Shown: positions 6,406 to 47,451 of the stretch, piece by piece
How positions within the stretch are numbered: the first letter of the stretch is position 1
Layout: each line of letters starts with the position of its first letter
IMG/VR virus record: IMGVR_UViG_3300012936_000025
Location: 1 to 47,451 of that record
DNA length: 47,451 nucleotides
Reading direction: 5' to 3' (one strand)
From: a virus
Program-made: the position numbers and the translations under genes
Notes under the pieces: generated by a model
What the model was told of the DNA's origin: nothing
Seen by the model: only the letters and a program-made list of their open reading frames with translations
The model's database searches: none

Positions 6406-6452
6406 TACTCCGCTAAATACTTGAACGACATAGTAGTGTAATTGGCGGAGTA
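6406..6452 (+). promoter_or_regulatory. hairpin masking the ribosome site of the 2691-residue gene
   Basis: TACTCCGCTAAATAC (6406-6420) can pair with GTAATTGGCGGAGTA (6438-6452) in 14 of 15 positions, including one G-U pair, leaving a 17-base loop. The 3' arm contains the GGCGGAG Shine-Dalgarno sequence for the ATG at 6455. The 5' arm contains the late-promoter core CTAAATA. Read-through RNA would carry both arms and hide the ribosome site. RNA started from this promoter would begin in the loop and lack the 5' arm. Confidence 0.65.
6413..6419 (+). promoter_or_regulatory. late-promoter core CTAAATA
   Basis: CTAAATA lies 35 bases before the ATG at 6455 in the short gap after gp8, preceded by a T-rich run (6397-6406). 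It sits inside the 5' arm of the hairpin at 6406-6452. Confidence 0.65.
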
Positions 6453-30750: not shown

Positions 30751-31500
30751 ATGAGTACAATTTTTGTAAACAACATACAAGCATCGACTGGCAATCAAGT
30801 CGTCATTCCAGCGGGGCATTCTTTACTACTCGGGGGTACTGCACTAGATAGTTCCTCTTTGATGCCTAACCCCTCTGGACAAGGCGGACTTGGCGTTGCC
30901 AGTGACGGTTCTAATTATGTTTTTAACTCGTATGGTGCTAAAGGTATCATCACATTCACCTCAAACTCCACGTACTTTCCATCTTCAGGTACTAAACTAG
31001 TATATGTAAGATGTGTAGGTGCTGGTGGCGGTGGTAGCGGATACGCCGAAAGTGGCGCTGCTGGAGGATTCTCAGAAGGATTCTTTAATATGATTGGCGT
31101 CTCTTCAGTCTCGATTACAGTCGGTACTGGTGGTAACCCAACATATTATTCGGGTAATACCCCTAGTGGAACATCTTCGTCATTCGGAACTTTCTGTACT
31201 TGTACTGGCGGTAAAGGTGCTAACCAAAGTCACCAACACTGTGGTGGTCTACCAGGACTAGGTTCTGGCGGAGACGTTAATCTCTACGGTGGTGGTGGAA
31301 CGGGTCACGGACACAATGGTCGTGGTGGAAACTCTCACTTCGGTGGAAGTAATGGAACTGGTCACCCACAAGCAGGAGCATATGCTCCCAACCATCAAAC
31401 CCACGGATCATACGGTGGCGGTGGTGCTAACGGATGGGGTGGTTCATACACTGGTGCTAAAGGCATGAGTGGCGCGGTAGTAGTAATGGAGTACGGTTGA
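30751..31500 (+). CDS. glycine-rich tail-tip protein, copy 1
   Basis: A 249-residue protein, the first of three tandem paralogues. Residues 1-45 (MSTIFVNNIQASTG, then VVIPAGHSLLLGG) form a short attachment-like head shared by all three. A middle beta domain (about 70-150) carries VRCVGAGGGGSG and VSITVGTGG, the pattern of glycine-rich phage fibre domains. The C-terminal third is almost pure Gly with His: SHQHCGGLPGLGSGGD (about 155-170), GHGHNGRGG, and NHQTH before a final GGGG stretch. Such Gly-rich loops are known in T4-like gp38-type adhesins, where they determine receptor choice. An adhesin role here is inference from composition and position after the fibre gene. Confidence 0.7.
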   Translation: MSTIFVNNIQASTGNQVVIPAGHSLLLGGTALDSSSLMPNPSGQGGLGVASDGSNYVFNSYGAKGIITFTSNSTYFPSSGTKLVYVRCVGAGGGGSGYAESGAAGGFSEGFFNMIGVSSVSITVGTGGNPTYYSGNTPSGTSSSFGTFCTCTGGKGANQSHQHCGGLPGLGSGGDVNLYGGGGTGHGHNGRGGNSHFGGSNGTGHPQAGAYAPNHQTHGSYGGGGANGWGGSYTGAKGMSGAVVVMEYG

Positions 31501-32258
31501 TGTCTATTTTAAGAGTAAATGAAATTCGCCCACAAACGGGCTCGGCGGTTAACATCCCTTCTGGACATTCTCTTGTCCTAGGTTCGACGCCACTAACAAC
31601 AGCAAACATCATGCCTGACCCAACTGGTCAAGCTGGAAAGATTCTGGTTAGTGATGGTGCTGATCTAAACTGGACATCTGTAGGTCCAACTGGTATCACT
31701 GTTATCAACAGTTCATCGACCTGGAACAAACCAGCTGGTGTAACTAAGATCTACGTAAGACTCGTAGGTGGTGGTGGCGCTGGATCTGGTGTTGGTGAGA
31801 CTGGTGCTGCTGGTGGATACTCCGAGAGACTAATTGATGTCTCAGGTGTCTCTTCTGTGTCGGTTACGATTGGAACGGGATCTACAAACCCCACGTATTA
31901 TTCTGGTTCTGCTGGTGGTGGAACATCTTCATCGTTTGGAAGTTACATGACTTGTACAGGCGGTGGCGGTGGAAACCAAAGTCATCAGCACTGTGGTGGT
32001 CTTCCTGGACTAGGATCTGGTGGAGACTTTAATCAGTATGGTGGCGGCGGTGGCGGTCACGAATACTATTCTGGTGTTACTGGTGGAAACTCCTATTGGG
32101 GAGGATCTGGTGCTAGTGGACACCCCAACGGAGGCACATATGCTTCCAACCACCAAACTCATGCTTCCCCTGGAAGCGGTGGTACAGCTGGATACCACAC
32201 TTCATACGCTGGCAATCATGGTATGAATGGCATCTGTGTTATTTGGGAGTTTAAGTAA
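31500..32258 (+). CDS. glycine-rich tail-tip protein, copy 2
   Basis: A 252-residue paralogue of its neighbours. The ATG at 31500 overlaps the upstream stop by one base (TGATG) and is preferred over the TTG at 31497. The layout is the same: head ILRVNEIRPQTG, then VNIPSGHSLVLGS; middle domain with SSTWNKPAGVTKIYVRLVGG, the WxxPxGV entry typical of Gly-rich fibre domains; then SHQHCGGLPGLGSGGDFNQY, a Gly-rich variable stretch (about 180-215) and NHQTH. The shared HQHCGG and NHQTH stretches and the differing loops between them suggest a fixed scaffold with variable tips. Confidence 0.7.
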   Translation: MSILRVNEIRPQTGSAVNIPSGHSLVLGSTPLTTANIMPDPTGQAGKILVSDGADLNWTSVGPTGITVINSSSTWNKPAGVTKIYVRLVGGGGAGSGVGETGAAGGYSERLIDVSGVSSVSVTIGTGSTNPTYYSGSAGGGTSSSFGSYMTCTGGGGGNQSHQHCGGLPGLGSGGDFNQYGGGGGGHEYYSGVTGGNSYWGGSGASGHPNGGTYASNHQTHASPGSGGTAGYHTSYAGNHGMNGICVIWEFK

Positions 32259-33023
32259 ATGTCAACAGTTAGAGTAAATATTCTAGAATCATCCAGTGGT
32301 GGTGCTATTAACATCCCATCTGGAAATAGTATCGAACTGGGTGACAGTGGTCTTTCGCTCAGTGAAAATTCTTTGCCCCCTCAACCTAGTGGTGGCAATG
32401 GTCAGTATCTTTATAGTGACGGAAGTTCTTCCCCAACCTTCAACCTACCTGGACCTAAGAGTATTCAAACCTTTACCCAGTCTGGTACTTGGAACAGACC
32501 ATCTGGTATTGGTAAGATCCTTGTTCGTCTAGTTGGTGGCGGTGGTGGAGGATCAGGTCATGGAGAATCAGCAGGTGCTGGTGGATACTCCGAAAAATTA
32601 ATTGACGTTGGTAGTATTACTTCTGTAGCGGTAACCGTTGGAAACGGATCCCAGAGTGGAACATACTATTCTGGTAATGGCGGTAGTGGTTCAACCACAT
32701 CATTTGGCAGTTATCTTTCTGCTAGTGGTGGCGGTGGTGCTAATCAAACTAACCAACATTGTGGTGGTCTTCCTGGAGTAGGTTCTGGTGGAGATCTAAA
32801 CCTCTATGGTGGTGGCGGAACTGGACATTACGGTTATACTGGTGTTGGTGGTTCTTCCCATTTCGGTGGACAAGGTGCTACTGGTCACCCCCAAGGCGGC
32901 AACTATTCTCACAACCACCAAACTCATGCTGCTCCTGGAGCAGGTGGCGGTGCTGGATGGAGATCTAGTTATCAAGGAGCACATGGTTCCAATGGAATCG
33001 TCATTGTCTACGAATACGCCTAA
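32259..33023 (+). CDS. glycine-rich tail-tip protein, copy 3
   Basis: A 254-residue paralogue whose ATG directly abuts the preceding stop. The head is TVRVNILESSSGGAINIPSG, the middle domain contains SGTWNRPSGIGKILVRLVGG, and the C-terminal part contains NQHCGGLPGVGSGGDLNLYG and HNHQTHAAPGAGGG. Copies 2 and 3 share the WNxPxG motif; copy 1 has lost the Trp (TYFPSSG). The last two codons and stop (GCC TAA) are fused to the late-promoter core for the next gene. Three full-length copies in a row argue that all are expressed, either as alternative tips or as a heteromeric tip. Confidence 0.7.
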   Translation: MSTVRVNILESSSGGAINIPSGNSIELGDSGLSLSENSLPPQPSGGNGQYLYSDGSSSPTFNLPGPKSIQTFTQSGTWNRPSGIGKILVRLVGGGGGGSGHGESAGAGGYSEKLIDVGSITSVAVTVGNGSQSGTYYSGNGGSGSTTSFGSYLSASGGGGANQTNQHCGGLPGVGSGGDLNLYGGGGTGHYGYTGVGGSSHFGGQGATGHPQGGNYSHNHQTHAAPGAGGGAGWRSSYQGAHGSNGIVIVYEYA

Positions 33024-33030
33024 ATAAATA
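33020..33030 (+). promoter_or_regulatory. late-promoter cores CTAAATA / ATAAATA
   Basis: CTAAATAAATA contains two overlapping cores (33020-33026 and 33024-33030) at the stop codon of the third glycine-rich gene, 23 bases before the ATG at 33054. It is a likely start of transcription for the enzyme island. Confidence 0.65.
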
Positions 33031-33053
33031 AGTTACACGTTTACGAGAAGAAA

Positions 33054-33530
33054 ATGAAGCGAGTCCTCATGGATTACAGAGGCGTCATTACTGATGTCGC
33101 CGATGTTGGTAAAGAGTTTGAAATCTATGATGGTGACGATGCTCCCTTTCGCTGGGTTCTCTGTCGCCATGATGATGTAACCTCCGCTTGGCATTTCTGT
33201 CAAGGTCAATGGATCCGTCCTGATCAGCGTCTTGAGATTGACCAAGACATGAAGCGTAAAGTAGCATACGGTCTTATTGAAGATCAGCTAGACATGCTTT
33301 ATAAGGACATCAAAGCAGGTCACCTCACCGATGGCGCTTGGGTTGCTCACGTAGATAACGTCAAGGCAAACATCCCTCCCCAAAGAGATGTTGAAAACGA
33401 TGATACGTACAAAGAAGGTAAGTATCAGGTTATCCTCCATGGTAAGAATGATCCAGCATGGAACAACCTGCCTGATGATGACGGTAAACAACTGAAATTC
33501 AACAAAGAAAAAGACAATCGTCCAGAATAA
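33054..33530 (+). CDS. hypothetical protein between fibre tips and halogenases, 158 residues
   Basis: Not recognised. The N-terminal half (about 15-65) reads like a small beta domain with WVLCRHDDVTSAWHFCQGQW, where Cys, His and Trp cluster. The middle (about 66-100) is helical and charged, and the C-terminal 40 residues are polar and probably disordered (ending KFNKEKDNRPE). The ATG is preceded by GAGAAG and two late-promoter cores. The place directly after tail-fibre genes is where many phages carry a fibre-assembly chaperone, so that is a reasonable guess, but no chaperone family motif is visible. It could equally be the first member of the enzyme operon. Confidence 0.6.
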   Translation: MKRVLMDYRGVITDVADVGKEFEIYDGDDAPFRWVLCRHDDVTSAWHFCQGQWIRPDQRLEIDQDMKRKVAYGLIEDQLDMLYKDIKAGHLTDGAWVAHVDNVKANIPPQRDVENDDTYKEGKYQVILHGKNDPAWNNLPDDDGKQLKFNKEKDNRPE

Positions 33531-33539
33531 TTTTGTAAT

Positions 33540-35066
33540 ATGAAAGTGAATTCGATATGTATACTCGGCGGGGGCACCGCTGGGTGGATGACTGCTGCTT
33601 CTTTAGTAAAAAACTTTCCCGACAAAGTTATCACTCTAGTAGAATCCGAAGAGGTTCCTAGGATAGGTGTCGGAGAATCTACGCTACAAAAAATTAGATA
33701 TTGGTTAGATGATTTGGGAATCAAGGATTCCGATTTCATGAAACATTGTGATGCCACATATAAACAGAGCATTAAATTCGTAAACTTTAATGATGGTCTG
33801 GGTGCATGGCATTATCCATTCACTGCCAATGAACTACCTCCAGGTACTAAGTATGATATCGCTGATTGGTTTATCCATGCTGGTCTACATCCCGAAACTC
33901 CAGCTGGAGATTTTGCTAGGTGGATTACACCTAACTACAAGTGTCTAGAAGAGAATAGAATCCCGACACATGATATGCCAGGGTTCAATTTTCATTATCA
34001 GACAGCATTCCATTTTGATGCTTTGAAGTTCTCTCACTGGTTGAGAGATGAATACTGTGCTCCTAGAGGACTACAGCACAAACATGCTACTGTAGTTGAT
34101 GTAGAGTACAATGACGATGGTGGAATCAAATGTCTTGTAGATGACGAAGGTAAGACATATGAAGCAGATCTATTTGTAGACTGTACAGGTTTCAAATCAT
34201 TCTTGCTACAAGATAAGTTAGGAACACCTTTCGATTCTATGGAAGATGTCTTGATTAATAACAGGGCATGGCATACTACAGTTCCATATAAAGATAAGAA
34301 GAAAGAACTAAACGTATATACCACATGTACTGCTATGTCTGCTGGGTGGATATGGAATATCCCACTGACACATAGAGCAGGAACTGGTTATGTATTCTGT
34401 GATAAGTTTATTAGTGATGAGCAGGCGCTAGAAGAGTTCAAAGAACATCTAGGACACCCAGAAGATGCTGAGTATCGTCTGATCAAATTCAAGACAGGTA
34501 TCACAAAAAAAGTATGGAACAAGAACGTAGTGGGTATAGGACTGTCGTCTGGATTCATTGAACCCCTGGAATCTAATGGCGTTGCTTTCTCACATGACTT
34601 TGCTATGTACCTGTGTGATGTTCTGTCTAGGAGAGAGAAGGTAAATGCTATTGACAAGAACACATTCAACATCAGATGTAGGAATGCCTGGTTTGATTTT
34701 GCTTGGTTCGTAGCATTCCACTTTGGACTACAGACTAGAGATGACACTCCATACTGGAAGTATGTCACAGATAACATTGATTGGTGTGGTGGGTTTGCTT
34801 CCCATATGCCTGGCGTTACAGAGAAGTTCTCTGTTGTTCAAAAAATGTTGACGACATATGATCTAGGAAAGTGGACTCATGATACTATGACAGGACTCTC
34901 TTATATCGCTGCTGCTAATAAATTCAACCCATTCTCGGGGTGGACTATCCGAGAAAAGATACGGCAAGGCGAACTAAATCCGAACCTATTCCACGAACTT
35001 GCTGAGTGGGACAACGATAAATATCAAGAGAGCTTCCCGTTTGCTCACGAATATTATGAAAGTTAA
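33540..35066 (+). CDS. prnA: FAD-dependent tryptophan-halogenase-type enzyme, copy 1
   Basis: Family enzymes use FADH2, oxygen and halide to make hypohalous acid, which a lysine directs onto an aromatic substrate, classically tryptophan. At 508 residues it fits PrnA-like halogenases. Visible landmarks: FAD-binding GGGTAGW at 10-16, IGVGEST at 42-48, catalytic-type Lys75 in ATYKQSIKF (PrnA Lys79), the halogenase signature W270-x-W272-x-I-P (WIWNIP), and EPLESNG with Glu344 in the place of PrnA Glu346. The usual Thr after ESxG is Asn here. No signal peptide is present. No flavin reductase lies in the window, so reduced FAD would come from the host or from elsewhere in the genome. Substrate unknown. 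Confidence 0.88.
   Translation: MKVNSICILGGGTAGWMTAASLVKNFPDKVITLVESEEVPRIGVGESTLQKIRYWLDDLGIKDSDFMKHCDATYKQSIKFVNFNDGLGAWHYPFTANELPPGTKYDIADWFIHAGLHPETPAGDFARWITPNYKCLEENRIPTHDMPGFNFHYQTAFHFDALKFSHWLRDEYCAPRGLQHKHATVVDVEYNDDGGIKCLVDDEGKTYEADLFVDCTGFKSFLLQDKLGTPFDSMEDVLINNRAWHTTVPYKDKKKELNVYTTCTAMSAGWIWNIPLTHRAGTGYVFCDKFISDEQALEEFKEHLGHPEDAEYRLIKFKTGITKKVWNKNVVGIGLSSGFIEPLESNGVAFSHDFAMYLCDVLSRREKVNAIDKNTFNIRCRNAWFDFAWFVAFHFGLQTRDDTPYWKYVTDNIDWCGGFASHMPGVTEKFSVVQKMLTTYDLGKWTHDTMTGLSYIAAANKFNPFSGWTIREKIRQGELNPNLFHELAEWDNDKYQESFPFAHEYYES
35017..35023 (+). promoter_or_regulatory. possible late-promoter core ATAAATA inside halogenase 1
   Basis: GATAAATA lies 32 bases before the ATG of the second halogenase, the same distance as at established-looking sites in this window. 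It is inside coding sequence, so chance occurrence is possible. Confidence 0.35.
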
Positions 35067-36657
35067 GTCTATATGTATTGTAGGTGGTGGGTCTTCGGGT
35101 TGGATGACCGCCGCTCTATTGGCAACAAATCTGAAAGGCGTAGAAATTACAGTCATAGAACCAAGAGATGTTCCCACGATTGGGGTAGGAGAATCTACCA
35201 TGGGACATATTAATAGGTTCCTAAACTTTATCGGACTATCTGGTAGGGACAAAGACTTCATGTCTTCATGTTCTGCTACCTATAAAGTCTCTGTTAGATT
35301 CAATAACTTCAAGGAATTGGGACACACATTCCAGTATCCTTTTGGCAAGTCTCTGTATCAAAGTAGCAGACCTGATGATTGGTTTGCTATCAAGCAAGTA
35401 CATCCAGATTTTGATGTAACGTATTCTGAGTTTTACAACTCGATTACACATCTTGCTAATACAAATAAGATGTGCCATCAAAGCATGTATCTACCCAACT
35501 ATGCTTTCGATAAAGATACTGCCTATCACTTTGATGCTACTGCTTTTGGACAGTATCTAAAAGAGAAGATCTGTATTCCTAATGGTGTCAAAGTAATTAG
35601 AGATACTATCGAAGAATTCTTCTTTGATAATGAAGGCAACCTAGACTTCATGCTTCCTAAGAGTTCAAAGACTTGGAGGATCAAAGCAGACCTATACATT
35701 GACTGTACTGGTTTCAAGTCTCTGCTTCTAGAGCAACAGATGGGTTCTGAGTTTGTATCGTTCAAAGATGTTCTGTTGAATGATACTGCTCTGGCAGGAC
35801 GTGTGCCATATGAAGACAAAGAGAATGAGATTCTAAACACCACTGATTGTACTGCCCTGAGAAATGGGTGGGTGTGGAAAACCCCCACATGGGATAGAAT
35901 CGGAACAGGTTATGTTTATTCTAGTGACTTCGCTAGTGATGAAGATGCCGAGAGAGAATTTAGAGCACACCTCACTGAACAATACGGTAAGGAAAGAGCT
36001 GAAGCAGTAGACCTGAGACGGATTCCTATCCGTCACGGTAAGCACAAACAGGCATGGGTAAAGAACGTGGTTGGCATAGGTCTCTCCTACGGGTTCCTAG
36101 AACCCCTAGAAGCGACGGGACTGTTTACCACACATGAGAATGCTATTAGATTGATGGACGCCTTACAGAGGCGAGACGGGTACGTTAATGAGATGGACCG
36201 TTCTGCTTTCAATATTGCTGCTGATTATGACATTGAATCTATGAAAGATTTCATCGTCATGCACTACACGATGTCTAAGCGAGAAGATAGTCCTTACTGG
36301 AAGTACATCACAAACAATCTCAAACCAATCTCACAAGAAGAATTAACTGACAGAATCGTTAAGAGTCCTAGACTTTATAAAGAAGTATGCTACAATGTAG
36401 GGCACAGTAACAACTACCCAGATCTACAAGGAACATTGTATATCGCTGGTGGTATGGACTTTACACCGATCTCTAGATCACAAGCACTCTATGCTTACAA
36501 AGAAGAGTTCGAGCGATGGGAAGAAGAAACAATGCCCATCGCTAAAAAAGAGAAGCGGAAAGCTTTAAAGTTTCTAGAGACTCAACCAACTGCTTACCAA
36601 TTTTTGAAGAACAATATCTATGTGGAACCCATTCAAGAAGAAAGAGAAGAAGATTAA
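35056..36657 (+). CDS. FAD-dependent tryptophan-halogenase-type enzyme, copy 2
   Basis: A 533-residue paralogue of the upstream halogenase. I choose the ATG at 35056 because it places the FAD motif GGGSSGW at 10-16 exactly as in copy 1; the longer frame from 34999 adds residues with no family match. The start overlaps the upstream stop by 11 bases. Present are IGVGEST (42-48), Lys77 in ATYKVSVRF at the catalytic lysine position, and Glu352 in EPLEATG. The WxWxIP signature is changed to W272-V-W274-K-T-P, and Ser after the catalytic Glu is Ala353. These changes suggest a different substrate, a different halide, or a related flavin oxygenase reaction. The C-terminus is extended, Lys- and Glu-rich, and overlaps the next gene. 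Confidence 0.83.
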   Translation: MKVKSICIVGGGSSGWMTAALLATNLKGVEITVIEPRDVPTIGVGESTMGHINRFLNFIGLSGRDKDFMSSCSATYKVSVRFNNFKELGHTFQYPFGKSLYQSSRPDDWFAIKQVHPDFDVTYSEFYNSITHLANTNKMCHQSMYLPNYAFDKDTAYHFDATAFGQYLKEKICIPNGVKVIRDTIEEFFFDNEGNLDFMLPKSSKTWRIKADLYIDCTGFKSLLLEQQMGSEFVSFKDVLLNDTALAGRVPYEDKENEILNTTDCTALRNGWVWKTPTWDRIGTGYVYSSDFASDEDAEREFRAHLTEQYGKERAEAVDLRRIPIRHGKHKQAWVKNVVGIGLSYGFLEPLEATGLFTTHENAIRLMDALQRRDGYVNEMDRSAFNIAADYDIESMKDFIVMHYTMSKREDSPYWKYITNNLKPISQEELTDRIVKSPRLYKEVCYNVGHSNNYPDLQGTLYIAGGMDFTPISRSQALYAYKEEFERWEEETMPIAKKEKRKALKFLETQPTAYQFLKNNIYVEPIQEEREED

Positions 36658-37402
36658 ATTCTACTCTCTGCTGCCAGCAGTTAACACACTACACCCCATT
36701 ACTCCTGCTAGGAAGTTTAGGCGTAAGTGGGTTCAAGAAGAAAAAGAATTCTTCGTAGAGCATGAAAAGAAATGCCCTCTCCATCTTAAGACAGGTCTAA
36801 CTTCTGTCGGTAGATGTCCTGCTATTAAAACTACGATGCACACTGGGTACATCGTATATGCCCCAGCAGACTTTACCATCAATACTATTGGTGATGGACA
36901 GGAGTTGAATGTTACCCACAGACATGTTCTAGAACATGCTCCATATGTTGATACACATGCTGACTGGCAATCTGAATGGGTTCTGCCAACTAATGCTCCC
37001 TGTGTCAACAAAGTAGTTAAGTTGAATCTTCCCTGGAGACTTCTTACTAATGATCATGATATTATTTTCTTGATCACAGCAGTTCAGTATCATCCAGAAG
37101 AAAGGTTTACTCAACTGACAGGTCTTATGGATCCACTGATCACCAGTGAAATTAATTGTCAACTAGCATGGCATGTTATGGATGACACTGTAACTGTACT
37201 TGCTGGTACACCATTGGCACAGATCATTCCTATGTCCAGAGAGGCATTGTCGTGGGATGTAGATATCTGTGATGCCACACCAAGGTTGATTGACCTAGAG
37301 CGAGAGATGATCTACGCTGGTCAACATCAATTTGGTTCTGATTACAAAGAGAAAGTCAATAACATGGCAAAAATTCTGAAGAAATATGGATTCGACGATT
37401 GA
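36620..37402 (+). CDS. unidentified enzyme-island protein, 260 residues (possibly DUF6065-like)
   Basis: The ATG lies 38 bases inside halogenase 2, so translation is likely coupled. The first 11 residues are very basic (MWNPFKKKEKK). The body has GYIVYAPADFTINTIGDG (about 76-93), WVLPTNAPCVNKVVKLNLPW, a region around PEERFTQLTGLMDPL, and near the C-terminus TVLAGTPLAQIIPMSRE (about 193-209). The last pattern, a beta strand followed by GxPLxQIxP, recalls DUF6065-type proteins found near phage and bacterial oxygenases, but I am not certain. There is no HxD iron motif and no nucleotide-binding loop. In this operon it may be an accessory or substrate-presenting protein of the modification enzymes; that is inference from position only. 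Confidence 0.55.
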   Translation: MWNPFKKKEKKIKFYSLLPAVNTLHPITPARKFRRKWVQEEKEFFVEHEKKCPLHLKTGLTSVGRCPAIKTTMHTGYIVYAPADFTINTIGDGQELNVTHRHVLEHAPYVDTHADWQSEWVLPTNAPCVNKVVKLNLPWRLLTNDHDIIFLITAVQYHPEERFTQLTGLMDPLITSEINCQLAWHVMDDTVTVLAGTPLAQIIPMSREALSWDVDICDATPRLIDLEREMIYAGQHQFGSDYKEKVNNMAKILKKYGFDD

Positions 37403-37994
37403 CCTATTTCCGATAACCCTAAAGAAGGGAACAATCAAACCATCAGAAGAGGATGATAGGATTTCGTATGATCTCCTGTCATGCCTCTTTTCTGATTGTG
37501 ATAACAACAGTTGGACAGGGGAGTCAGGTTTATCCACAGGACAGCACAGTCTGGCACTGTATGAACATAAAGAACTACAGTGGTTCTATAGTCAACTCCA
37601 CGAACATGTACAACAGTATTGGAACAGTCTAGGTTACAGACAATCTTGTAAAATATTTCTAGTCAACTCTTGGGCAAACCATCACCAACAGGATGATACT
37701 ACTGCCGAGCATAGTCATTCTGATGGATCCCATGGTGGCAATCACATCTCTGGTGTATATTACTTTCGTAAACCAGAGAATGATGGGCACATAACATTCT
37801 GTGATCCCATAGATTATATAAGAAGACTTTGCCCATACGAAAGAATGTTTGGTATCGATACCATAGGTCAACAGGTTCAGGCAGAACAATATGAATTCAT
37901 TTTGTTCCCGTCATGGATGAGACATAGGGTCGAACGTTATAATACACAGAAGGAGCGTATTGCTATTTCATTTAACTACAGAGGTTTTTGGTAA
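37386..37994 (+). CDS. 2OG-Fe(II) oxygenase, TIGR02466-like, 202 residues
   Basis: Enzymes of this fold use 2-oxoglutarate, oxygen and Fe(II) to hydroxylate a substrate. The core is recognisable: AEHSHSD (His109, His111, Asp113) followed by HISGVYYFRKP, then FPSWMRHRVE (His180) and ERIAISFN (Arg191, the 2-oxoglutarate-binding position). The SGVYY and FPSWxxHxV pair is the mark of the TIGR02466 group. The stretch between the first His and SGVYY is longer than usual and rich in His and Gly (SDGSHGGNH). The ATG overlaps the upstream gene by 17 bases. Substrate unknown; position in the halogenase operon suggests a shared target. Confidence 0.75.
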   Translation: MDSTIDLFPITLKKGTIKPSEEDDRISYDLLSCLFSDCDNNSWTGESGLSTGQHSLALYEHKELQWFYSQLHEHVQQYWNSLGYRQSCKIFLVNSWANHHQQDDTTAEHSHSDGSHGGNHISGVYYFRKPENDGHITFCDPIDYIRRLCPYERMFGIDTIGQQVQAEQYEFILFPSWMRHRVERYNTQKERIAISFNYRGFW

Positions 37995-38563
37995 TGTTTG
38001 GTGTTGAATATATCTTCCCAACTCCTATATGGCATATGGAATATGATGCCTCTCATATGATTCCACATGTCTTTGATCTAAGAGAACAAGATCAAGGTAG
38101 AAAGGTATCTAACGTTGGTGGGTGGCAGTCAAATGATATCTCACCCGATACAGAATGGACACAAGAGTTCATCAAAGCAGTGGTTAAAAAGATTCCATAC
38201 TTCATGGATGAGTTTGGAGACTCTACTAAAAAACTAGAGTTCGATAACATGTGGTTTAACATCAATCCATCTGGAGCGGTCAATCTCGATCATATCCATG
38301 GTGGTAGTTTCTTGTCTGGAGTTCTTTGGTTAGTTGCTCCAGAAGGTTCTGGTAATATAGTATTCTCCAGACCTACACATGAGTCATATATCCTCTACAG
38401 TAATGTACAGAATCCAAATAGGAGATGTGGATTTACTGATTGGCAATATGAACCAAAAGAAAACCTGGCAGTGATCTTTCCATCATGGCTGTCTCACCGT
38501 GTGGAAATAAATAATACTGACAGTGACAGAGTATCCTTGGCATTTAATTTATCATGGAAGTAG
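37994..38563 (+). CDS. 2OG-Fe(II) oxygenase, TIGR02466 family, 189 residues
   Basis: A close structural relative of the preceding gene but clearly a different protein. The N-terminus (GVEYIFPTPIW) is the standard start of TIGR02466 proteins. Iron ligands are likely within DHIHGGSFLSGVLWL (His100, His102), with His168 in FPSWLSHRVE and 2-oxoglutarate-binding Arg179 in SDRVSLAFN. I choose the ATG at 37994, which overlaps the upstream stop by one base (TAATG), over the TTG six bases earlier. The length is normal for the family, so the fold is complete. Two neighbouring members suggest either a heterodimer or two sites on one substrate. Confidence 0.82.
   Translation: MFGVEYIFPTPIWHMEYDASHMIPHVFDLREQDQGRKVSNVGGWQSNDISPDTEWTQEFIKAVVKKIPYFMDEFGDSTKKLEFDNMWFNINPSGAVNLDHIHGGSFLSGVLWLVAPEGSGNIVFSRPTHESYILYSNVQNPNRRCGFTDWQYEPKENLAVIFPSWLSHRVEINNTDSDRVSLAFNLSWK
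38517..38523 (+). promoter_or_regulatory. possible late-promoter core ATAAATA within the oxygenase gene
   Basis: AATAAATA lies 30 bases before the ATG at 38554. It is inside coding sequence and unsupported by other signals. Confidence 0.3.
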
Positions 38564-39141
38564 TAGAACTCAATGACTTTTTACCAGTCAGTCTACAGGA
38601 ACATATCAAACATATTCTTCTTGATAAAGACTTCGACTGGCATTACATAGCAGACGTTACCTTTGATGAGAATCACGAACAGGGTGATGTACAGCAACCT
38701 GGATTTTATAATACTCCAGTGTTAGATGGCAGACCACAGAATAAATTCTTTGACTGCTTTTCTTTCTTTGTACCACTCCTGATGGATGCTTACTCAAAGT
38801 TCTATCCACCAGCACACATCCATTTGTCTAGGATGAGGATTGGACTTAATATCCCTGGCAGCGATGATGGATATAACAATCCCCACATTGACCACGAAGG
38901 ATGTGATGTCTCTGCTATCAAAAATAACGTAGTCGCTTTGTACTATGTTAATAGCACTCCTGGTGATACCTATATCTTTAACGAGACTGTAAAGTCTGAG
39001 AACTATACAACTCTCGCTAAAATCAAACCCCAGCAGGGTAAGTTAGTTTTCTTTGATGGTAATCATTACCACGCTAGTTCATCTTCTAAGTCGAAAGATG
39101 TCCGCTTAGTTATCTCCTTTAACCTATATGAATTCCATTGA
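38554..39141 (+). CDS. 2OG-Fe(II) oxygenase, 195 residues
   Basis: A prolyl-hydroxylase-like fold by motif. His111 and Asp113 (NNPHIDHEG) form the HxD pair, then VVALYYVNSTPGDTYIF provides the core strands. FFDGNHYHASS supplies the distal His (173, less likely 171), and DVRLVISFN supplies Arg184 for 2-oxoglutarate. The pattern of an HxD pair, a GDTYIFNE stretch and FDGxxYHAS is typical of phage oxygenases in T4-like cyanophages. It starts 10 bases inside the preceding gene. No signal peptide or membrane segment is visible. Substrate unknown; protein or sugar hydroxylation is possible. Confidence 0.8.
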   Translation: MEVVELNDFLPVSLQEHIKHILLDKDFDWHYIADVTFDENHEQGDVQQPGFYNTPVLDGRPQNKFFDCFSFFVPLLMDAYSKFYPPAHIHLSRMRIGLNIPGSDDGYNNPHIDHEGCDVSAIKNNVVALYYVNSTPGDTYIFNETVKSENYTTLAKIKPQQGKLVFFDGNHYHASSSSKSKDVRLVISFNLYEFH

Positions 39142-39856
39142 TTACGTTGATAAGTTTCAAAGAAATCTTATTCCAGAAATCTATCAGCATGACAGACCAT
39201 TAGTTCTAAAAGGGTTTGTAGAAGAAGTAGAAAAGTTTGCTACATGGAAAGATGTAGAAGACATCTTTAATGCAGGTCTCTACAACGTGGAGATTGTTTC
39301 CAACAGACAGAAGATGGATGTTCCACATTACCCATACTTCTGGAATCCATGGAGAGTACAAGACAAGGCGTTTATCTTTGATAAAGTTAATCAAGGAGAT
39401 ACGTTTGTAATCCATCAGTATTCACAACACAATCCATACATCGCTAATTTCTGTGAGGCTATCGAAAGAACATTTGATGTTATATGTGACACCCACATCT
39501 ATGGGAACATAGGAACAACAGCAGAGTCTTTCTGTCCCCACATTGATATTCCTGTTAACTTGATTTTTCAAGTAGAAGGAAAGACTACATGGAGAATGTA
39601 TAAGAACATGTGTTCAGATCTGTTGACACAGAATGAAGTTAATGTGAATGTAAGAGAGGATGATCTAGAAGTTCTAGTTGAATATGAATTAGAACCTTGC
39701 GACATGCTCTACGTTCCTGCTAGAAACTTCCACGGTGCTTTCCCTGATAGTCAACGGTTGTCTATTAGTATTCCTTGTAGATCTAAAAAATATAATACTG
39801 TCAGTCGAGATAACAACCTAGACAGACGGAGGTTGAAAATTGATTACTGTCGTTAG
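39128..39856 (+). CDS. JmjC/cupin-type Fe(II) oxygenase, 242 residues
   Basis: This is a JmjC or cupin-8-like protein hydroxylase by motif, unlike its neighbours. The early segment YQHDRPLVLKGFVEEVEKFATW (about 19-40, split here) matches the N-terminal helix and strand of such enzymes, where a residue stretch of the form RPLVLKGF is standard. Metal ligands are His138 and Asp140 (FCPHIDIP) and His202 (VPARNFHGAF). GKTTWRMY (151-158) provides the 2-oxoglutarate region. LEPCDMLYVPARNFHGAF is the usual JmjC closing strand. Known relatives hydroxylate Arg, His, Asn or Lys in proteins such as ribosomal proteins. A target on a phage protein is plausible. The start overlaps the upstream gene by 14 bases. 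Confidence 0.78.
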   Translation: MNSIDYVDKFQRNLIPEIYQHDRPLVLKGFVEEVEKFATWKDVEDIFNAGLYNVEIVSNRQKMDVPHYPYFWNPWRVQDKAFIFDKVNQGDTFVIHQYSQHNPYIANFCEAIERTFDVICDTHIYGNIGTTAESFCPHIDIPVNLIFQVEGKTTWRMYKNMCSDLLTQNEVNVNVREDDLEVLVEYELEPCDMLYVPARNFHGAFPDSQRLSISIPCRSKKYNTVSRDNNLDRRRLKIDYCR

Positions 39857-40388
39857 AGGAGCGATCTCGAAAGAACTATGTGACTTTGCTTGTAAAGAAT
39901 TTCTCCTACTACAGAATGTAGTGAGAACTTTAGAACCAACGAACAATGCTTTCGATCATCCATCAATAGGAAGCGGTACGTTTTCGTGGTATGCTCCACT
40001 ACCATTTGAAAACTTGATGGAGTATATCAAACCCACTATAGAAGAAGTGGTCGATGGATATTTGTATTCTACCTATTCTTATGGTAGAGTGTATTACCAT
40101 GGCAGTGAGTTGAAAGAACACACTGATCGTCCTGCTTCAGAAATTAGTGTCTCTTGCTGTTTAAGTAAAGATACTGACTGGGCATTACAATTCCATGGTT
40201 CATCAGTAGAACTAGACGTGGGAGATATTTGTATCTTTCCTGGTTCTGATATTCCTCACTGGAGGGATTGTTATACTGGAGAACGTTACGTAGGAGCATT
40301 CCTACAATACGTAAGAGCGTATGGAGATAGAGCAAATTTAAGGTGGGATAACCGTCCGATATTGGCATCTCCGTGTGTGAATAAATAG
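39840..40388 (+). CDS. 2OG-Fe(II) oxygenase, TTG start, 182 residues
   Basis: The start is the TTG at 39840, supported by a perfect GGAGG at 39828-39832 with a 7-base spacer. The next in-frame ATG is near residue 60 and would remove the N-terminal part of the domain. Motifs: His94 and Asp96 in KEHTDRPASEISVSCCL, and His140 in FPGSDIPHWRD, followed by GERYVGAFLQYVR. The HxDRPAxEISVS stretch is nearly the same as in the gene at 41436, so these two are closer to each other than to the TIGR02466 pair. The gene overlaps its predecessor by 17 bases, and its stop codon lies inside a late-promoter core. Confidence 0.8.
   Translation: MITVVRGAISKELCDFACKEFLLLQNVVRTLEPTNNAFDHPSIGSGTFSWYAPLPFENLMEYIKPTIEEVVDGYLYSTYSYGRVYYHGSELKEHTDRPASEISVSCCLSKDTDWALQFHGSSVELDVGDICIFPGSDIPHWRDCYTGERYVGAFLQYVRAYGDRANLRWDNRPILASPCVNK
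40381..40387 (+). promoter_or_regulatory. late-promoter core ATAAATA at the stop codon
   Basis: GAATAAATAG spans the stop of the upstream oxygenase and lies 22 bases before the ATG at 40410. It is the first break in the overlapping run of genes, which fits a new transcript start. Confidence 0.55.
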
Positions 40389-40409
40389 TCGTGTACTGGT
40401 TTTTAGATT

Positions 40410-40688
40410 ATGTCTGAAGAACAAAGCGTGGTTGAAGTTGACATTGAATTAGAAACTTTCGACACCATCTGGAATGAAGTTATCGCTAAGCTCGCTGAGC
40501 AGCGTGAACTGAAAGTCGAGAAGAGAAAGGAAATCGATGAGCAAACTGCCACTTGCACTAGGGTTGACCTAGCTGAATATAATGAGGCACATCTAATGGT
40601 CAATAAGTTGGAAGCAGCTGTTGAGGTATTGGATTTGGTTCGTACCCGTTGCCTGGGACTTGAATCGGCAATTAATTATACTGAATGA
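40410..40688 (+). CDS. small helical protein, 92 residues
   Basis: An acidic, nearly all-helical protein. Residues about 15-45 are strongly charged (TFDTIWNEVIAKLAEQRELK) and residues about 53-90 look like a second amphipathic helix ending NKLEAAVEVLDLVRTRCLG. No fold or family is recognised with confidence. Short coiled-coil proteins of this type are frequent just before the neck genes in cyanomyoviruses. Its role could be a scaffold or adaptor. It starts 22 bases after a late-promoter core, so it may open a separate transcription unit that includes the two downstream oxygenases. Confidence 0.6.
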   Translation: MSEEQSVVEVDIELETFDTIWNEVIAKLAEQRELKVEKRKEIDEQTATCTRVDLAEYNEAHLMVNKLEAAVEVLDLVRTRCLGLESAINYTE

Positions 40689-40699
40689 AGGAGAACACC

Positions 40700-40897
40700 A
40701 TGGATCAAGAGACACTTAAATCAAATTTTGATGAGCAACTTGCTAACACCGAAAAGCAAATTAAAGAACTAGAAGAAGGTCTAGAGAAAGCAAAGGAATA
40801 TAAGATCAAACTCCTTGGCGGTCTAGAGACCCTACGTCTTCTCGCTGGCGAACCAGCAGAAGGCGAAGCGGAAGCTGCTCCTGCTGCTGCTGAGTGA
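40700..40897 (+). CDS. small coiled-coil protein, 65 residues
   Basis: The ATG at 40700 is chosen because AAGGAG (40688-40693) lies at the right distance; the in-frame ATG at 40685 has no such site. Residues about 5-45 form a clear heptad-like coil (ANTEKQIKELEEGLEKAKEY), followed by LLGGLETLRLLAG and an Ala/Glu/Pro tail (EPAEGEAEAAPAAAE) that is probably disordered. It resembles the small coil proteins common in cyanomyovirus structural regions but has no known function. It ends in a one-base overlap with the next oxygenase gene. Confidence 0.62.
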   Translation: MDQETLKSNFDEQLANTEKQIKELEEGLEKAKEYKIKLLGGLETLRLLAGEPAEGEAEAAPAAAE

Positions 40898-41445
40898 TGA
40901 AACAGGAAGTAGTTTGGTATAAAACTTCTCTTCCTAAACAACTCATTGATCTGTTCCTAGAGGAATGTGGTCTCCATGAAAAAGACTGTAAACCTGGGAC
41001 TATCTTAAACGAACAAGTAGATCTAGAAACCAGAGACAGCTTGATCACCTGGGTTTACAATCACCACTGGATGGGTGGTGTCATCTATCACAACATACTC
41101 AAAGCTAACGAACAAAACTTTGGGTATGATCTTTGCTCTATGGGTAACTCTAACCTTCAGTACACTACGTACAGCGAAGGTCAGTTCTATCGTTGGCATA
41201 GCGATACCAGAAGCGAAGGAGATAGGACAAGGAAGTTATCTTTCTCTCTACAGTTGTCTTCCCCAGAAGACTACAGCGGAGGGGAACTACAGTTCATGGA
41301 TAACGACGGTAGATTACTCTTTGCTCCTAAGGAATTAGGAACCTTGGTTATCTTTGATAGCAGGGTAAAGCATAGAGTAAGAAAGGTTCTATCTGGCAAA
41401 AGACGAGCACTTGTTGGATGGGTGGAAGGTCCGCTATGGAAGTAG
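40897..41445 (+). CDS. PKHD-type 2OG-Fe(II) hydroxylase, 182 residues
   Basis: Similar to PKHD-type (PiuC-like, P4H-type) hydroxylases. The ligands are very clear: His101 and Asp103 (FYRWHSDTR), then SFSLQLSSPEDYSGGELQF, which is the family strand, with His159 in FDSRVKHRV and Arg169 in GKRRALVGWVEGP. The length is shorter than bacterial PiuC (about 225 residues), lacking its C-terminal extension. The start ATG overlaps the upstream stop by one base (TGATG), and the GTG three bases earlier is less likely. 2OG-Fe(II) oxygenases are widespread in T4-like cyanophages; the substrate is not known. Confidence 0.83.
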   Translation: MKQEVVWYKTSLPKQLIDLFLEECGLHEKDCKPGTILNEQVDLETRDSLITWVYNHHWMGGVIYHNILKANEQNFGYDLCSMGNSNLQYTTYSEGQFYRWHSDTRSEGDRTRKLSFSLQLSSPEDYSGGELQFMDNDGRLLFAPKELGTLVIFDSRVKHRVRKVLSGKRRALVGWVEGPLWK

Positions 41446-42002
41446 GTGATTGGGGTATAATAAAAGCAAAGGGGTTCTTAGACATACGAAAGTATGTCGA
41501 ACCAGAACCTATAGAAACAGGTTACACCGAATGGATTGGTAACAGTCCAGTAGTAAAACAGCACGAAGATTACAATGGTCTTATTGTAATCAACGGAGAC
41601 TACACTTCTAGATACTGCTATCCAGGTCATAAGAAATTACACTACGAGTGTAAGAAAAGATTAGAGCATATCTTAAATGATAGACTGACATCTACATACT
41701 GGTTTGATAGATGGTACATGAACGGCAGTTCGATGGCATCACATAAAGACAGACCAGCATGTGAGATCAGTGTCTCTATGAACATCAGTCAAGACACCCA
41801 CCATGGGTGGCCTCTTATCTTTGATGTAGATGGAGAAGAGACTCCTTGCTTCACAGAACCAGGAGATGCTGTCATTTACAAGGGTATGGATTTTGATCAT
41901 TGGAGGAATAAATTCCACGGAAACTCTTTCCACCAGATCTTTTTCCACTTCGTAAGAACTGATGGACACTACCTTGAATATGCCAATCCCCCTACTTCCT
42001 AA
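41436..42002 (+). CDS. 2OG-Fe(II) oxygenase, last gene of the enzyme island, 188 residues
   Basis: The ATG at 41436 is favoured over that at 41418 because GGAAGG at 41424-41429 precedes it by six bases. Ligands: His103 and Asp105 in SHKDRPACEISVSMNIS, and His155 in KGMDFDHWRN, followed by FHQIFFHFVRTDG. It is the nearest relative of the gene at 39840 in this window: both share HxDRPAxEISVS and the DxxHWR distal motif. The pair may have arisen by duplication, now separated by three genes. Its stop codon lies in the terminator loop at 41990-42020. Confidence 0.8.
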   Translation: MEVGDWGIIKAKGFLDIRKYVEPEPIETGYTEWIGNSPVVKQHEDYNGLIVINGDYTSRYCYPGHKKLHYECKKRLEHILNDRLTSTYWFDRWYMNGSSMASHKDRPACEISVSMNISQDTHHGWPLIFDVDGEETPCFTEPGDAVIYKGMDFDHWRNKFHGNSFHQIFFHFVRTDGHYLEYANPPTS

Positions 42003-42020
42003 ATAGAAGTAGGGTTTTTT
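41990..42020 (+). terminator. Rho-independent terminator with late-promoter core in the loop
   Basis: CCCTACTTC (41990-41998) pairs with GAAGTAGGG (42006-42014), nine perfect pairs, followed by six T (42015-42020). The seven-base loop is exactly CTAAATA. The terminator ends the enzyme island just before gp13. Confidence 0.85.
41999..42005 (+). promoter_or_regulatory. late-promoter core CTAAATA for the neck genes
   Basis: CTAAATA forms the terminator loop and lies 26 bases before the gp13 ATG. It would restart transcription for gp13-gp16 where upstream transcripts end. Confidence 0.6.
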
Positions 42021-46127: not shown

Positions 46128-46451
46128 ATGAAGCTATTATTTGTTCTATTCGCTTCATTGTTCCTTGCCCTTCCAGCATGGGCAGTTGATGTACAGATGG
46201 GATCAGGAGGTAACCTTGTATTTGAACCAGACGACATCACTATTAACGCTGGTGAGTCAATTCATTTTGTTAACAATATGCTGCCTCCTCATAATGTTAT
46301 AGTGGAGGACCGCCCAGATCTAGGTCACGAATCCCTTGCAATGTTACCAGGAGAAGAGTTCGACCTTACATTTAACGATCCAGGCGAGTATACTTTCTTC
46401 TGTGCCCCACATAAGGGCGCTGGAATGATAGGACACGTACATGTACAATGA
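46128..46451 (+). CDS. petE: plastocyanin
   Basis: A blue-copper electron carrier of the thylakoid lumen, moving electrons from cytochrome b6f to photosystem I or to cytochrome oxidase. At 107 residues it has an N-terminal signal peptide (MKLLFVLFASLFLALPAWA, cleavage after Ala19) and all four type-1 copper ligands: His55 (LPPHNV), Cys92, His95 (FFCAPHKG) and Met100 (GAGMIGH). It is known as a cyanophage auxiliary metabolic gene. It overlaps the oxidase gene by four bases (ATGA), so the two are coupled. The ribosome site is weak, with the ATG preceded by a run of A. The signal peptide means the phage copy enters the lumen via the host's export machinery. Confidence 0.93.
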   Translation: MKLLFVLFASLFLALPAWAVDVQMGSGGNLVFEPDDITINAGESIHFVNNMLPPHNVIVEDRPDLGHESLAMLPGEEFDLTFNDPGEYTFFCAPHKGAGMIGHVHVQ

Positions 46452-46951
46452 AAAAAATCAACACTGTTGTTTTAGACATCACTGTTGCCGTCTTAGACTT
46501 TCTCTACCAGGGTAGAGACTATCAACGCTTTTGGGTGCTTGAGGAAATCGCTCGGGCACCTTATTTTGCGTTTTTAAGTGTCTTACACTTTAGGGAAAGC
46601 ATGGGATTGAGAGGACCAGAACATCTCTATCTAATGGAGGAACATTTTGCTCAGACTCTTAACGAAACAGAACATCTGGAATATATGGAAAGTCGGGGTG
46701 GTAATCGCTATTGGATTGACCGCTTTGTTGCCAAGCATCTCGTTCTTATCTACTATTGGGTTAACGTGGTGTATTATGGGCTGGCTCCTATGTCTGCTTA
46801 CCATCTCTCCTATGAAGTAGAGATTCATGCCGCTGCTACATATGCTAAGTACCTAGGTATGAATGGTCATGACGACAAGATCCTTGAGATCTTGAATGAC
46901 GAACTGGAGCACTCATCAGAACTCCTCCACGCCATAGAGATTATCAAATGA
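46448..46951 (+). CDS. plastoquinol terminal oxidase (PTOX)
   Basis: A di-iron oxidase of the alternative-oxidase family that passes electrons from plastoquinol to oxygen, relieving an over-reduced chain. At 167 residues it is short, as expected for cyanophage versions. All motifs are present: LEEIARAPYFAFLSVLHFRE (31-50, Glu32 or 33), LNETEHLEYM (Glu73, His76), YEVEIHAAATYAKYL (Glu125) and LNDELEHSSEL (Glu152, His155). The hydrophobic segment about 93-118 may anchor it to the membrane surface. It overlaps petE by four bases, and its stop is overlapped by the next gene. With plastocyanin it would change the fate of electrons after the plastoquinone pool while carbon fixation is shut down. Confidence 0.9.
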   Translation: MKKINTVVLDITVAVLDFLYQGRDYQRFWVLEEIARAPYFAFLSVLHFRESMGLRGPEHLYLMEEHFAQTLNETEHLEYMESRGGNRYWIDRFVAKHLVLIYYWVNVVYYGLAPMSAYHLSYEVEIHAAATYAKYLGMNGHDDKILEILNDELEHSSELLHAIEIIK

Positions 46952-47124
46952 ACAAACAAGAAGTACAAGAGATGATCGATGATGCCATAAGAAGGCATAA
47001 TCGTAATGCTGGTATTATCAGTATGTTTGTTGGTTTCTTTATTCTTGGACTCTTCAGTGAGGGTCTACTTAGACTCATCGGAGTTATACCTCCGCTATTA
47101 CCATGGTTAAAAATTACACTATAA
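46948..47124 (+). CDS. small membrane protein, 58 residues
   Basis: It starts in a four-base ATGA overlap with PTOX. The first 20 residues are helical and polar (MNKQEVQEMIDDAIRRHNRN). One transmembrane helix follows (about 22-45, GIISMFVGFFILGLF then LLRLIGVIPPLLPW). The end is short. No known family. Coupling to the oxidase suggests a membrane anchor or helper for the petE-PTOX pair, but it may be an unrelated phage membrane peptide. Confidence 0.6.
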   Translation: MNKQEVQEMIDDAIRRHNRNAGIISMFVGFFILGLFSEGLLRLIGVIPPLLPWLKITL

Positions 47125-47128
47125 AGTT

Positions 47129-47451
47129 ATGAAAGTAGGAATGATCGGATTAGGTAGGATGGGTGAGGGTATGTCCCGCCGTCTTATCAAAGCAGGACAC
47201 GAGGTTCATGGATATCGGAACAATTATAAAAAAGCAGAAGAGCAATTTGAAAAGGGTTATATCAGTGGATGTGCCACTTCTATTGAAACTCTTGTTCAAG
47301 TAGTCAACACCACTAAAGGTGTATTCACAGATACAGCAAGACAACCAGGCATCTTTATGATGGTGGTTCCAGCAGAAACAGTAGAGGACACAATCAATGA
47401 GCTACTACAGTTTTGTAGTGAGGGAGATATTATTATTGATCATGGCAATAG
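47129..47451 (+). CDS. gnd: 6-phosphogluconate dehydrogenase, 3'-truncated by the window
   Basis: Enzyme of the oxidative pentose phosphate pathway that turns 6-phosphogluconate into ribulose-5-phosphate, CO2 and NADPH. Only the first 107 residues are seen. The NADP-binding start MKVGMIGLGRMGEGMSRRLI (GxGxMG at 7-12) is clear, and MMVVPAETVEDTINEL then DIIIDHGN continue the Rossmann domain. This is a well-known cyanophage auxiliary gene that, with other pentose-phosphate genes, feeds nucleotide synthesis. It follows the membrane peptide by four bases and is likely in the same transcript as petE and PTOX. Confidence 0.88.
   Translation, partial: MKVGMIGLGRMGEGMSRRLIKAGHEVHGYRNNYKKAEEQFEKGYISGCATSIETLVQVVNTTKGVFTDTARQPGIFMMVVPAETVEDTINELLQFCSEGDIIIDHGN

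Follow-up and report, generated by a model that had tools for sequence, protein, structure and literature searches.

A virus record of 47,451 bases in IMG/VR, called the window below and numbered from its first letter, carries two flavin-dependent halogenases, a protein we name p3 and a series of Fe(II)-oxygenase-like proteins between its Gly-rich tail-tip genes and gp13 (Table 1). We find that these genes belong to a cassette that is widespread in phages of marine and freshwater cyanobacteria and moves with the tail tip, not with gp13. Our preferred reading, to which we give a probability of about 0.52, is a tail-tip tailoring cassette whose enzymes, made late in infection, add hydroxyl groups and halogens to the tip adhesins. 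More tentatively, the resulting halogenated and hydroxylated virion adhesins, made by an exchangeable enzyme set that accompanies the tip type, might form a chemical layer of host recognition beyond the amino-acid sequence. An initial annotation had placed two halogenases, a third protein that it left unnamed and seven Fe(II) oxygenases in this interval, and the open reading frames (ORFs), their order and their Pfam matches bear this out. It also took the array to be unusual; instead, the cassette is widespread, and the characterized halogenase VirX1 belongs to it.

A gene order that follows the tail tip

The initial annotation had proposed a gene-neighborhood search for the same set in other phages. 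Using tblastn with the tip, p3, the JmjC protein and the first halogenase (Hal1) as queries, which matched overlapping sets of isolates, we found the set in nine isolate lineages: S-RIM44 (one group), Syn9/Syn10, Sf-FP1/CH3, Sf-FR1, S-CREM1, P-TIM40, P-RSM6, S-SZBM1 and S-WAM1. These isolates and about 100 viral contigs have a common order of tip or tips, a small gene, one or more halogenases, p3 and oxygenases, usually including the JmjC protein. This order comprises two to three Gly-rich tips and one to three halogenases. P-RSM6, S-SZBM1 and S-WAM1 are missing p3, and Sf-FR1 is missing the JmjC protein. This recurrence of set and order is far above chance. Records named S-RIM44 fall into two groups (KX349295, KU594607, KX349292 and KX349297 versus KX349291, KX349293, KX349294 and KX349296); one matches the neck genes of Syn1 and has no cassette halogenase match, and the other has the cassette.

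We then ran profiles built from the isolate cassettes over loci from IMG/VR. Among 80 p3-centered loci, tips, small gene and halogenase are present in 53/53 with at least 6.5 kb of upstream sequence, and a halogenase lies immediately 5' of p3 in 77/77. Downstream of p3 there are at least two oxygenases in 67/67 loci and a JmjC gene in 53/67. A halogenase is likewise present in every strong tip locus that extends 5 kb or more downstream (31/31). Removal of near-copies reduced 70 tip-plus-halogenase loci to 32, all of which have oxygenases, while p3 is found in 30/32 and JmjC in 29/32. The initial annotation had named independent scatter of the genes as the pattern that would speak against joint action; with a halogenase in all 53 p3 loci and all 31 strong tip loci that have enough flanking sequence, such scatter was not found.

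The position of the cassette in the genome varies, and its attachment to the tip does not. It ends at gp13 in the window, S-RIM44 and the Sf phages; in Syn10, P-RSM6, P-TIM40, S-WAM1 and S-CREM1 other genes follow, and tip, small gene and halogenase are still together. The enzyme block is inverted in three contigs (L076, L077 and L086), lying on the opposite strand but still beside the tips. S-RIM44 and Syn1 are 96.6% identical across most of gp13-gp16, yet Syn1 lacks the cassette, and its interval holds another tip, another small gene and a single oxygenase. Tip and enzymes are thus exchanged together between these two phages. Among 39 gp13-centered contigs with the same backbone, p3 occurs in 2/2 with this tip family and in 0/37 otherwise; 30/39 have no halogenase and no tip match above threshold. 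From the halogenase side, 36/49 loci have this tip family. Among the other 13, the halogenase of L339 and L342 lies near a Gly-rich protein of another kind, and L283 and L323 have three tandem tip-like paralogs that are not Gly-rich.

These data bear on the idea that a hypervariable interval beside the fiber simply collects metabolic oxygenases and halogenases, as in the model that links 2-oxoglutarate (2OG) to nitrogen (PMC3037559). The tip interval is hypervariable, and oxygenases occur in 25/39 of the gp13-centered tip intervals, most of which do not have this tip family. However, a halogenase beside p3 in all 77 loci, in a fixed order, is not the pattern of a passenger, and where the tip lies elsewhere in the genome, the cassette lies there too. 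The cassette-free intervals examined are made up of structural genes and genes of unknown function, with no more than one annotated oxygenase and no photosynthesis or other metabolic cargo. Hitchhiking of this kind seems improbable.

Predicted activities of the cassette proteins

Both halogenases match Trp_halogenase (PF04820) full-length, across the full catalytic domain of the Pfam family (E = 1e-106 for Hal1 and 2e-100 for Hal2). Lys77, Glu349 and Glu352 (Hal2 numbering) are invariant across 21 aligned halogenases, and the GxGxxG glycines are at least 90% conserved. The WxWxIP motif is WIWNIP in Hal1 and WVWKTP in Hal2, with Thr in place of Ile. Judging from the Lys, Glu and glycine residues, Hal1 and Hal2 are predicted to be catalytically intact. 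VirX1 from Syn10 (PDB 6QGM) is the closest solved structure for both, scoring 461 bits with Hal2 compared to 270 for the next structure. In Syn10 the cassette is the same and occupies the same place beside the tip. VirX1 was characterized by itself, with small-molecule substrates; the window has two such enzymes together with the rest of the cassette. The reviews consulted name no natural substrate for VirX1 (PMC8407142), and the tip linkage gives this first characterized viral halogenase a testable natural target. At the far end of the cassette, L148 (18212-19740), L165 (18176-19701), L176, L180 and other contigs have an additional pair of halogenases, divergent and more distantly related, for a total of three or four per locus. 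Standalone halogenases of other clades adjoin psbA or hli genes, unlike the cassette context.

The metal-site residues of the oxygenases are 100% conserved across 57-145 aligned relatives per family (nine for ox9). The HxD...H metal triad is present in ox6, the JmjC protein, ox8, ox10 and ox9. In ox4 and ox5, all relatives have HxH...H...R in place of the HxD/E...H triad of 2OG oxygenases, a pattern shared by the solved PF13759 proteins 2rg4 and 3bvc, and their residues place these two as PF13759 oxygenase-like only. In PHROG, ox6 is labeled "DNA endonuclease V" and ox8 and ox10 are labeled "ferrochelatase". With the metal-site residues fully conserved, these labels are misleading; they are probably mis-annotations that hide oxygenases in phage records. 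PHROG families 274, 2954 and 3531 carry those two labels on conserved 2OG-oxygenase metal sites.

In a profile search of solved structures (E = 2.5e-14), the best relatives of the JmjC protein are the histidyl-hydroxylases NO66 and MINA53, with YcfD further down. All share a JmjC core with HxD...H. The phage protein is a catalytic core of 242 aa, compared to chains of 373-489 aa in the ribosomal oxygenases, and it lacks their C-terminal dimerization and winged-helix domains. It thus appears to be related to the ribosomal oxygenases without being a member of that group. This kinship is what favors the proposal that the JmjC and 2OG enzymes hydroxylate translation components of the host or phage, but the reduction to a core counts against it, as do the halogenases and the tip linkage, for which it has no explanation. 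We regard a ribosomal target as very improbable.

The protein that the initial annotation had left unnamed, p3, indeed has no Pfam match and no PDB sequence match, but its confident model (pLDDT 92.3) points to a dUTPase-like fold. Its best PDB fold matches are dUTPases, at E = 3e-4 and with partial coverage. By eye, a conserved GxxDP segment resembles dUTPase motif 3, and the C-terminal motif 5 is not apparent; the ortholog in S-CREM1 is annotated there as a triphosphate nucleotidohydrolase. We do not claim membership in DUF6065, one of whose 14 members matched at E = 0.08. Bacterial relatives were also discarded as candidates. Three matching genome contigs, filed as bacterial or archaeal, contain halogenases and p3 only or the whole phage cassette, and they look like cyanophage contigs in those assemblies (L188, Nonlabens xiamenensis; L187, Prochlorococcus AG-418-C09; L189, MAG TMED129). 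Enlarged clusters with up to four p3-like paralogs and several halogenases occur in L323, L324, L327 and L329.

Tail tips as candidate substrates

The constant partners of the enzymes are the Gly-rich proteins, present in the window as three paralogs, G1, G2 and G3 (30751-33023). The AlphaFold model of the tip (pLDDT 85.8) matches the fiber of cyanophage Pam3 (E = 4.5e-8) and the tail tip of Bxb1, and we class the Gly-rich proteins as predicted tail-tip adhesins by PF21722 or by this predicted Pam3-Bxb1-like fold. In the accessible text on Pam3 (PMC9608196), a chaperone folds the fiber and embraces its Gly-rich tip, and receptor binding is proposed for the Gly-rich loops at the distal end. The window resembles the Pam3 gp24 fiber and gp25 chaperone in its Gly-rich tip fold and in the small gene adjoining it. 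That gene, which encodes 158 aa, is a member of the cassette unit, and its position makes its product a probable tail-tip chaperone; in contrast to gp25, it gave no detectable match in a PDB profile search. A further difference is that the same accessible text describes no halogenase or oxygenase with the Pam3 fiber.

The tips that accompany the enzymes have a distinctive composition. At equal Gly content, enzyme-linked Gly-rich tips contain 4.1% His and 5.0% Tyr, compared to 0.7% and 2.0% in Gly-rich proteins without the enzymes (locus-level p = 4e-7 and 1.5e-6, uncorrected for ancestry). Both enrichments persist when the comparison is restricted to the distant tip families (p = 0.001 each). 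When tips of other folds are compared, His makes up 3.8-6.2% of halogenase-linked and 0.5-2.4% of enzyme-free proteins, again uncorrected for ancestry, and Tyr fails to separate the two groups. The tips of Sf-CH11 are intermediate. Across 60 aligned tips, His is nearly invariant in several columns and Tyr in one. The initial annotation had suggested that both the fiber and the tips are modified; the tips fit, by linkage, by His and Tyr enrichment and by the kinship of the JmjC protein, whereas nothing we found is specific to the 3847-aa fiber. Three other candidates were tried and rejected. Trp as the enriched target was weak over all halogenase-linked tips (p = 0.03) and null in the distant ones (p = 0.96). 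Gly-richness did not determine the presence of a halogenase (Fisher 0.21), and matching of residues to enzymes over the 32 non-redundant loci yielded 917 tests, none of which survives correction.

We infer that the tips are the substrate. Tips, probable chaperone, halogenases, p3 and oxygenases would be made together late in infection. Before assembly, the oxygenases would hydroxylate tip side chains, most likely His in the case of the JmjC protein. Hal1 and Hal2, supplied with reduced flavin by the host, would halogenate aromatic rings, namely those of Tyr and possibly of His or a conserved Trp. The chaperone-like protein, perhaps with p3, may hold or present the tip, with modification taking place during folding on the chaperone-like protein. 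The modified tip would be expected to alter receptor binding, stability or host range. There is precedent in halogenases of the same class that act on peptide Trp (PMC10858898, PMC12518702). One of the same family, the brominase SrpI of a ribosomally synthesized and post-translationally modified peptide (RiPP) pathway, acts on a peptide encoded at the same locus (PMC10858898). The cassette would resemble such a RiPP-type tailoring cluster if the tips, which are constant neighbors of the enzymes, were their substrate. It differs from the SrpI system in its presumed substrate, a folded, full-length structural protein, and in having several 2OG oxygenases and a dUTPase-fold protein.

Several points weigh against tip modification. 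The His and Tyr contrasts that favor it ignore shared ancestry. Gly-rich tips are common without a halogenase (17/33), and among the 917 tests no oxygenase or second halogenase tracks a tip residue. Within a hypervariable interval, linked genes such as these could also travel without acting on their neighbor. Finally, the link between halogenase and tip is strong but not exclusive, because standalone halogenases of the same clade exist: those of L320, L337 and L291 look standalone, without a tip, and that of S-H35 lies in the replication region, away from tips.

The same standalone enzymes fit a different idea, in which the product of the cassette is a small molecule, halogenated and hydroxylated and derived from Trp, Tyr or a host metabolite. 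It would shield the infected cell or hit competitors, and the tip locus would be a mere carrier. Known flavin-dependent halogenases mostly use small molecules, VirX1 accepts many small aromatics for iodination in vitro (PMC8407142), and antibiotic protection has been suggested for cyanophage prnA (PMC9964418, PMC2984593). However, we see no scaffold-building or export genes in the cassette, and strict tip linkage, inversion beside the tips and tip composition would all go unexplained. We consider a small-molecule product unlikely.

The virion proteome of S-SZBM1 would fit modified tips and tips of low copy number equally well. In the accessible part of that paper (PMC9146016), the liquid chromatography-mass spectrometry table includes S-SZBM1_51 to _54, and S-SZBM1_48, S-SZBM1_49 and the cassette enzymes are missing from it. 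S-SZBM1_48 and _49 are the two tips by gene order, provided that the numbering in the paper matches the gene tags. Each of them would give 8-9 peptides of suitable size, the majority containing His, Tyr or Trp. The tips of the window have few tryptic sites and would give 1-3 usable peptides.

As the initial annotation had said, the halogenase and oxygenase families are already known in cyanophages. In the accessible parts of earlier papers (PMC3037559, PMC9964418, PMC9146016), prnA and 2OG oxygenases of the same families are reported singly as auxiliary metabolic genes and, unlike here, explained by metabolism, DNA repair or protection against antibiotics. Substrates encoded beside their tailoring enzymes are known as well; the link to the tail tip is the element that appears new. 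We found no tie of these enzymes to tail tips in the accessible open-access literature, a scope that leaves most subscription papers and all preprints outside. The strict and widespread linkage makes the function of cyanophage halogenases and 2OG oxygenases directly testable on purified virions. If our reading is true, phage adhesins carry enzymatic halogenation and hydroxylation, tip sequence alone predicts host range incompletely, and the cassettes offer a supply of enzymes that halogenate folded proteins. Modification, if proven, would be a new kind of virion maturation.

Layout and late expression of the run

The window contains late tail, neck and small-terminase genes of the T4-like cyanophage type. 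Between 33540 and 40388 all neighboring genes overlap, as the initial annotation had noted. The overlaps are 7-38 bases with the listed starts; a later in-frame ATG as the ox5 start would make one pair overlap by a single base. Short overlaps also occur in the neighboring structural genes (gp14/gp15 and later), so overlap alone is little informative. The conserved core ends at 40388. The genes ox9 and ox10, which had been counted as part of the enzyme run, lie outside it, in a separate, exchangeable slot (40894-42002) split off by the 92-aa and 64-aa ORFs. In a 90%-identical relative (L010), a DUF6445 protein with the HxD...H pattern (7277-7975) replaces ox9-ox10 before gp13. In some other loci a DUF6445-like gene lies inside the cassette. 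A possible parallel lies in bacterial clusters that combine halogenases with TonB receptors and with SapC, cupin and DUF6445 proteins. A nucleotide search with the run gave a 92-bp stretch as its sole match to any phage record.

Table 1. Features of the tail-tip and enzyme interval of the window
Feature	Position	Strand	Remarks
Fiber, 3847 aa	19204-30747		upstream border of tip/enzyme interval
G1, Gly-rich tail-tip protein	30751-31500	+	PF21722-like, just under Pfam cut-off
G2, Gly-rich tail-tip protein	31500-32258	+	PF21722
G3, Gly-rich tail-tip protein	32259-33023	+	PF21722; AlphaFold model matches Pam3 fiber
CTAAATAAATA, late-promoter-like motif	33020-33030	+	in front of cassette; putative function
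158-aa probable tail-tip chaperone	33054-33530	+	phrog_1787; identity by position only
Hal1, flavin-dependent halogenase	33540-35066	+	Pfam Trp_halogenase
Hal2, flavin-dependent halogenase	35056-36657	+	nearest solved structure VirX1
p3	36620-37402	+	phrog_7084; dUTPase-like fold (model)
ox4, PF13759 oxygenase-like	37386-37994	+	HxH...H...R
ox5, PF13759 oxygenase-like	37988-38563	+	HxH...H...R
ox6, 2OG-Fe(II) oxygenase	38554-39141	+	HxD...H...R
JmjC-type 2OG oxygenase	39128-39856	+	nearest NO66/MINA53 histidyl-hydroxylases
ox8, 2OG oxygenase-like	39840-40388	+	phrog_2954; HxD...H; final conserved-core gene
92-aa ORF	40410-40688	+	phrog_20247; frequent at core end
64-aa ORF	40701-40895		between core and ox9-ox10
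ox9, PF13640 2OG oxygenase	40894-41445	+	HxD...H; exchangeable slot
ox10, 2OG oxygenase-like	41418-42002	+	phrog_2954; HxD...H; exchangeable slot
Intrinsic terminator-like hairpin + T6	41990-42014	+	closes whole run
gp13	start 42032		directly after run

T4-type late promoters of cyanophages have ATAAATA as their core. Among the loci, this motif lies just 5' of the small gene in 46/98 and 5' of gp13 in 17/23, and it is absent before ox4 (0/76), JmjC (0/80) and ox8 (0/58). In the window, four of the eight CTAAATA matches lie 33-46 bases 5' of gene starts (at 6413, 19158, 33020 and 41999, before genes at 6455, 19204, 33054 and 42032), and these four are likely late promoters. Sigma-70-like promoters show no excess over shuffles. 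The terminator that the initial annotation had described as closing the run does so for the run as a whole, in a strong hairpin just 5' of gp13, but there is none at the end of the core after 40388. The simplest reading of these signals is that 33020-42014 is one late unit, which fits, together with the tail tip as constant partner, the earlier suggestion that the enzymes act together on a late product.

Late-promoter-like motifs also suggest that the enzymes are synthesized alongside virion parts, which argues against a role at the host surface. There the enzymes would act on the surface or the receptor, for example a glycan or an outer-membrane protein, to control adsorption or exclude superinfection. 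They would then travel with the tip that recognizes this receptor. Such a target accounts for the joint exchange of enzyme set and tip and for related cassettes with different tip folds, but it leaves the His enrichment of the tips unexplained, and we think it quite unlikely.

At the far end of the window, after the neck and terminase genes, positions 46128-47449 hold a photosynthesis/carbon gene cassette that encodes plastocyanin (PF00127), a plastoquinol-terminal-oxidase-like protein (PF01786) and the beginning of what is probably a 6-phosphogluconate dehydrogenase.

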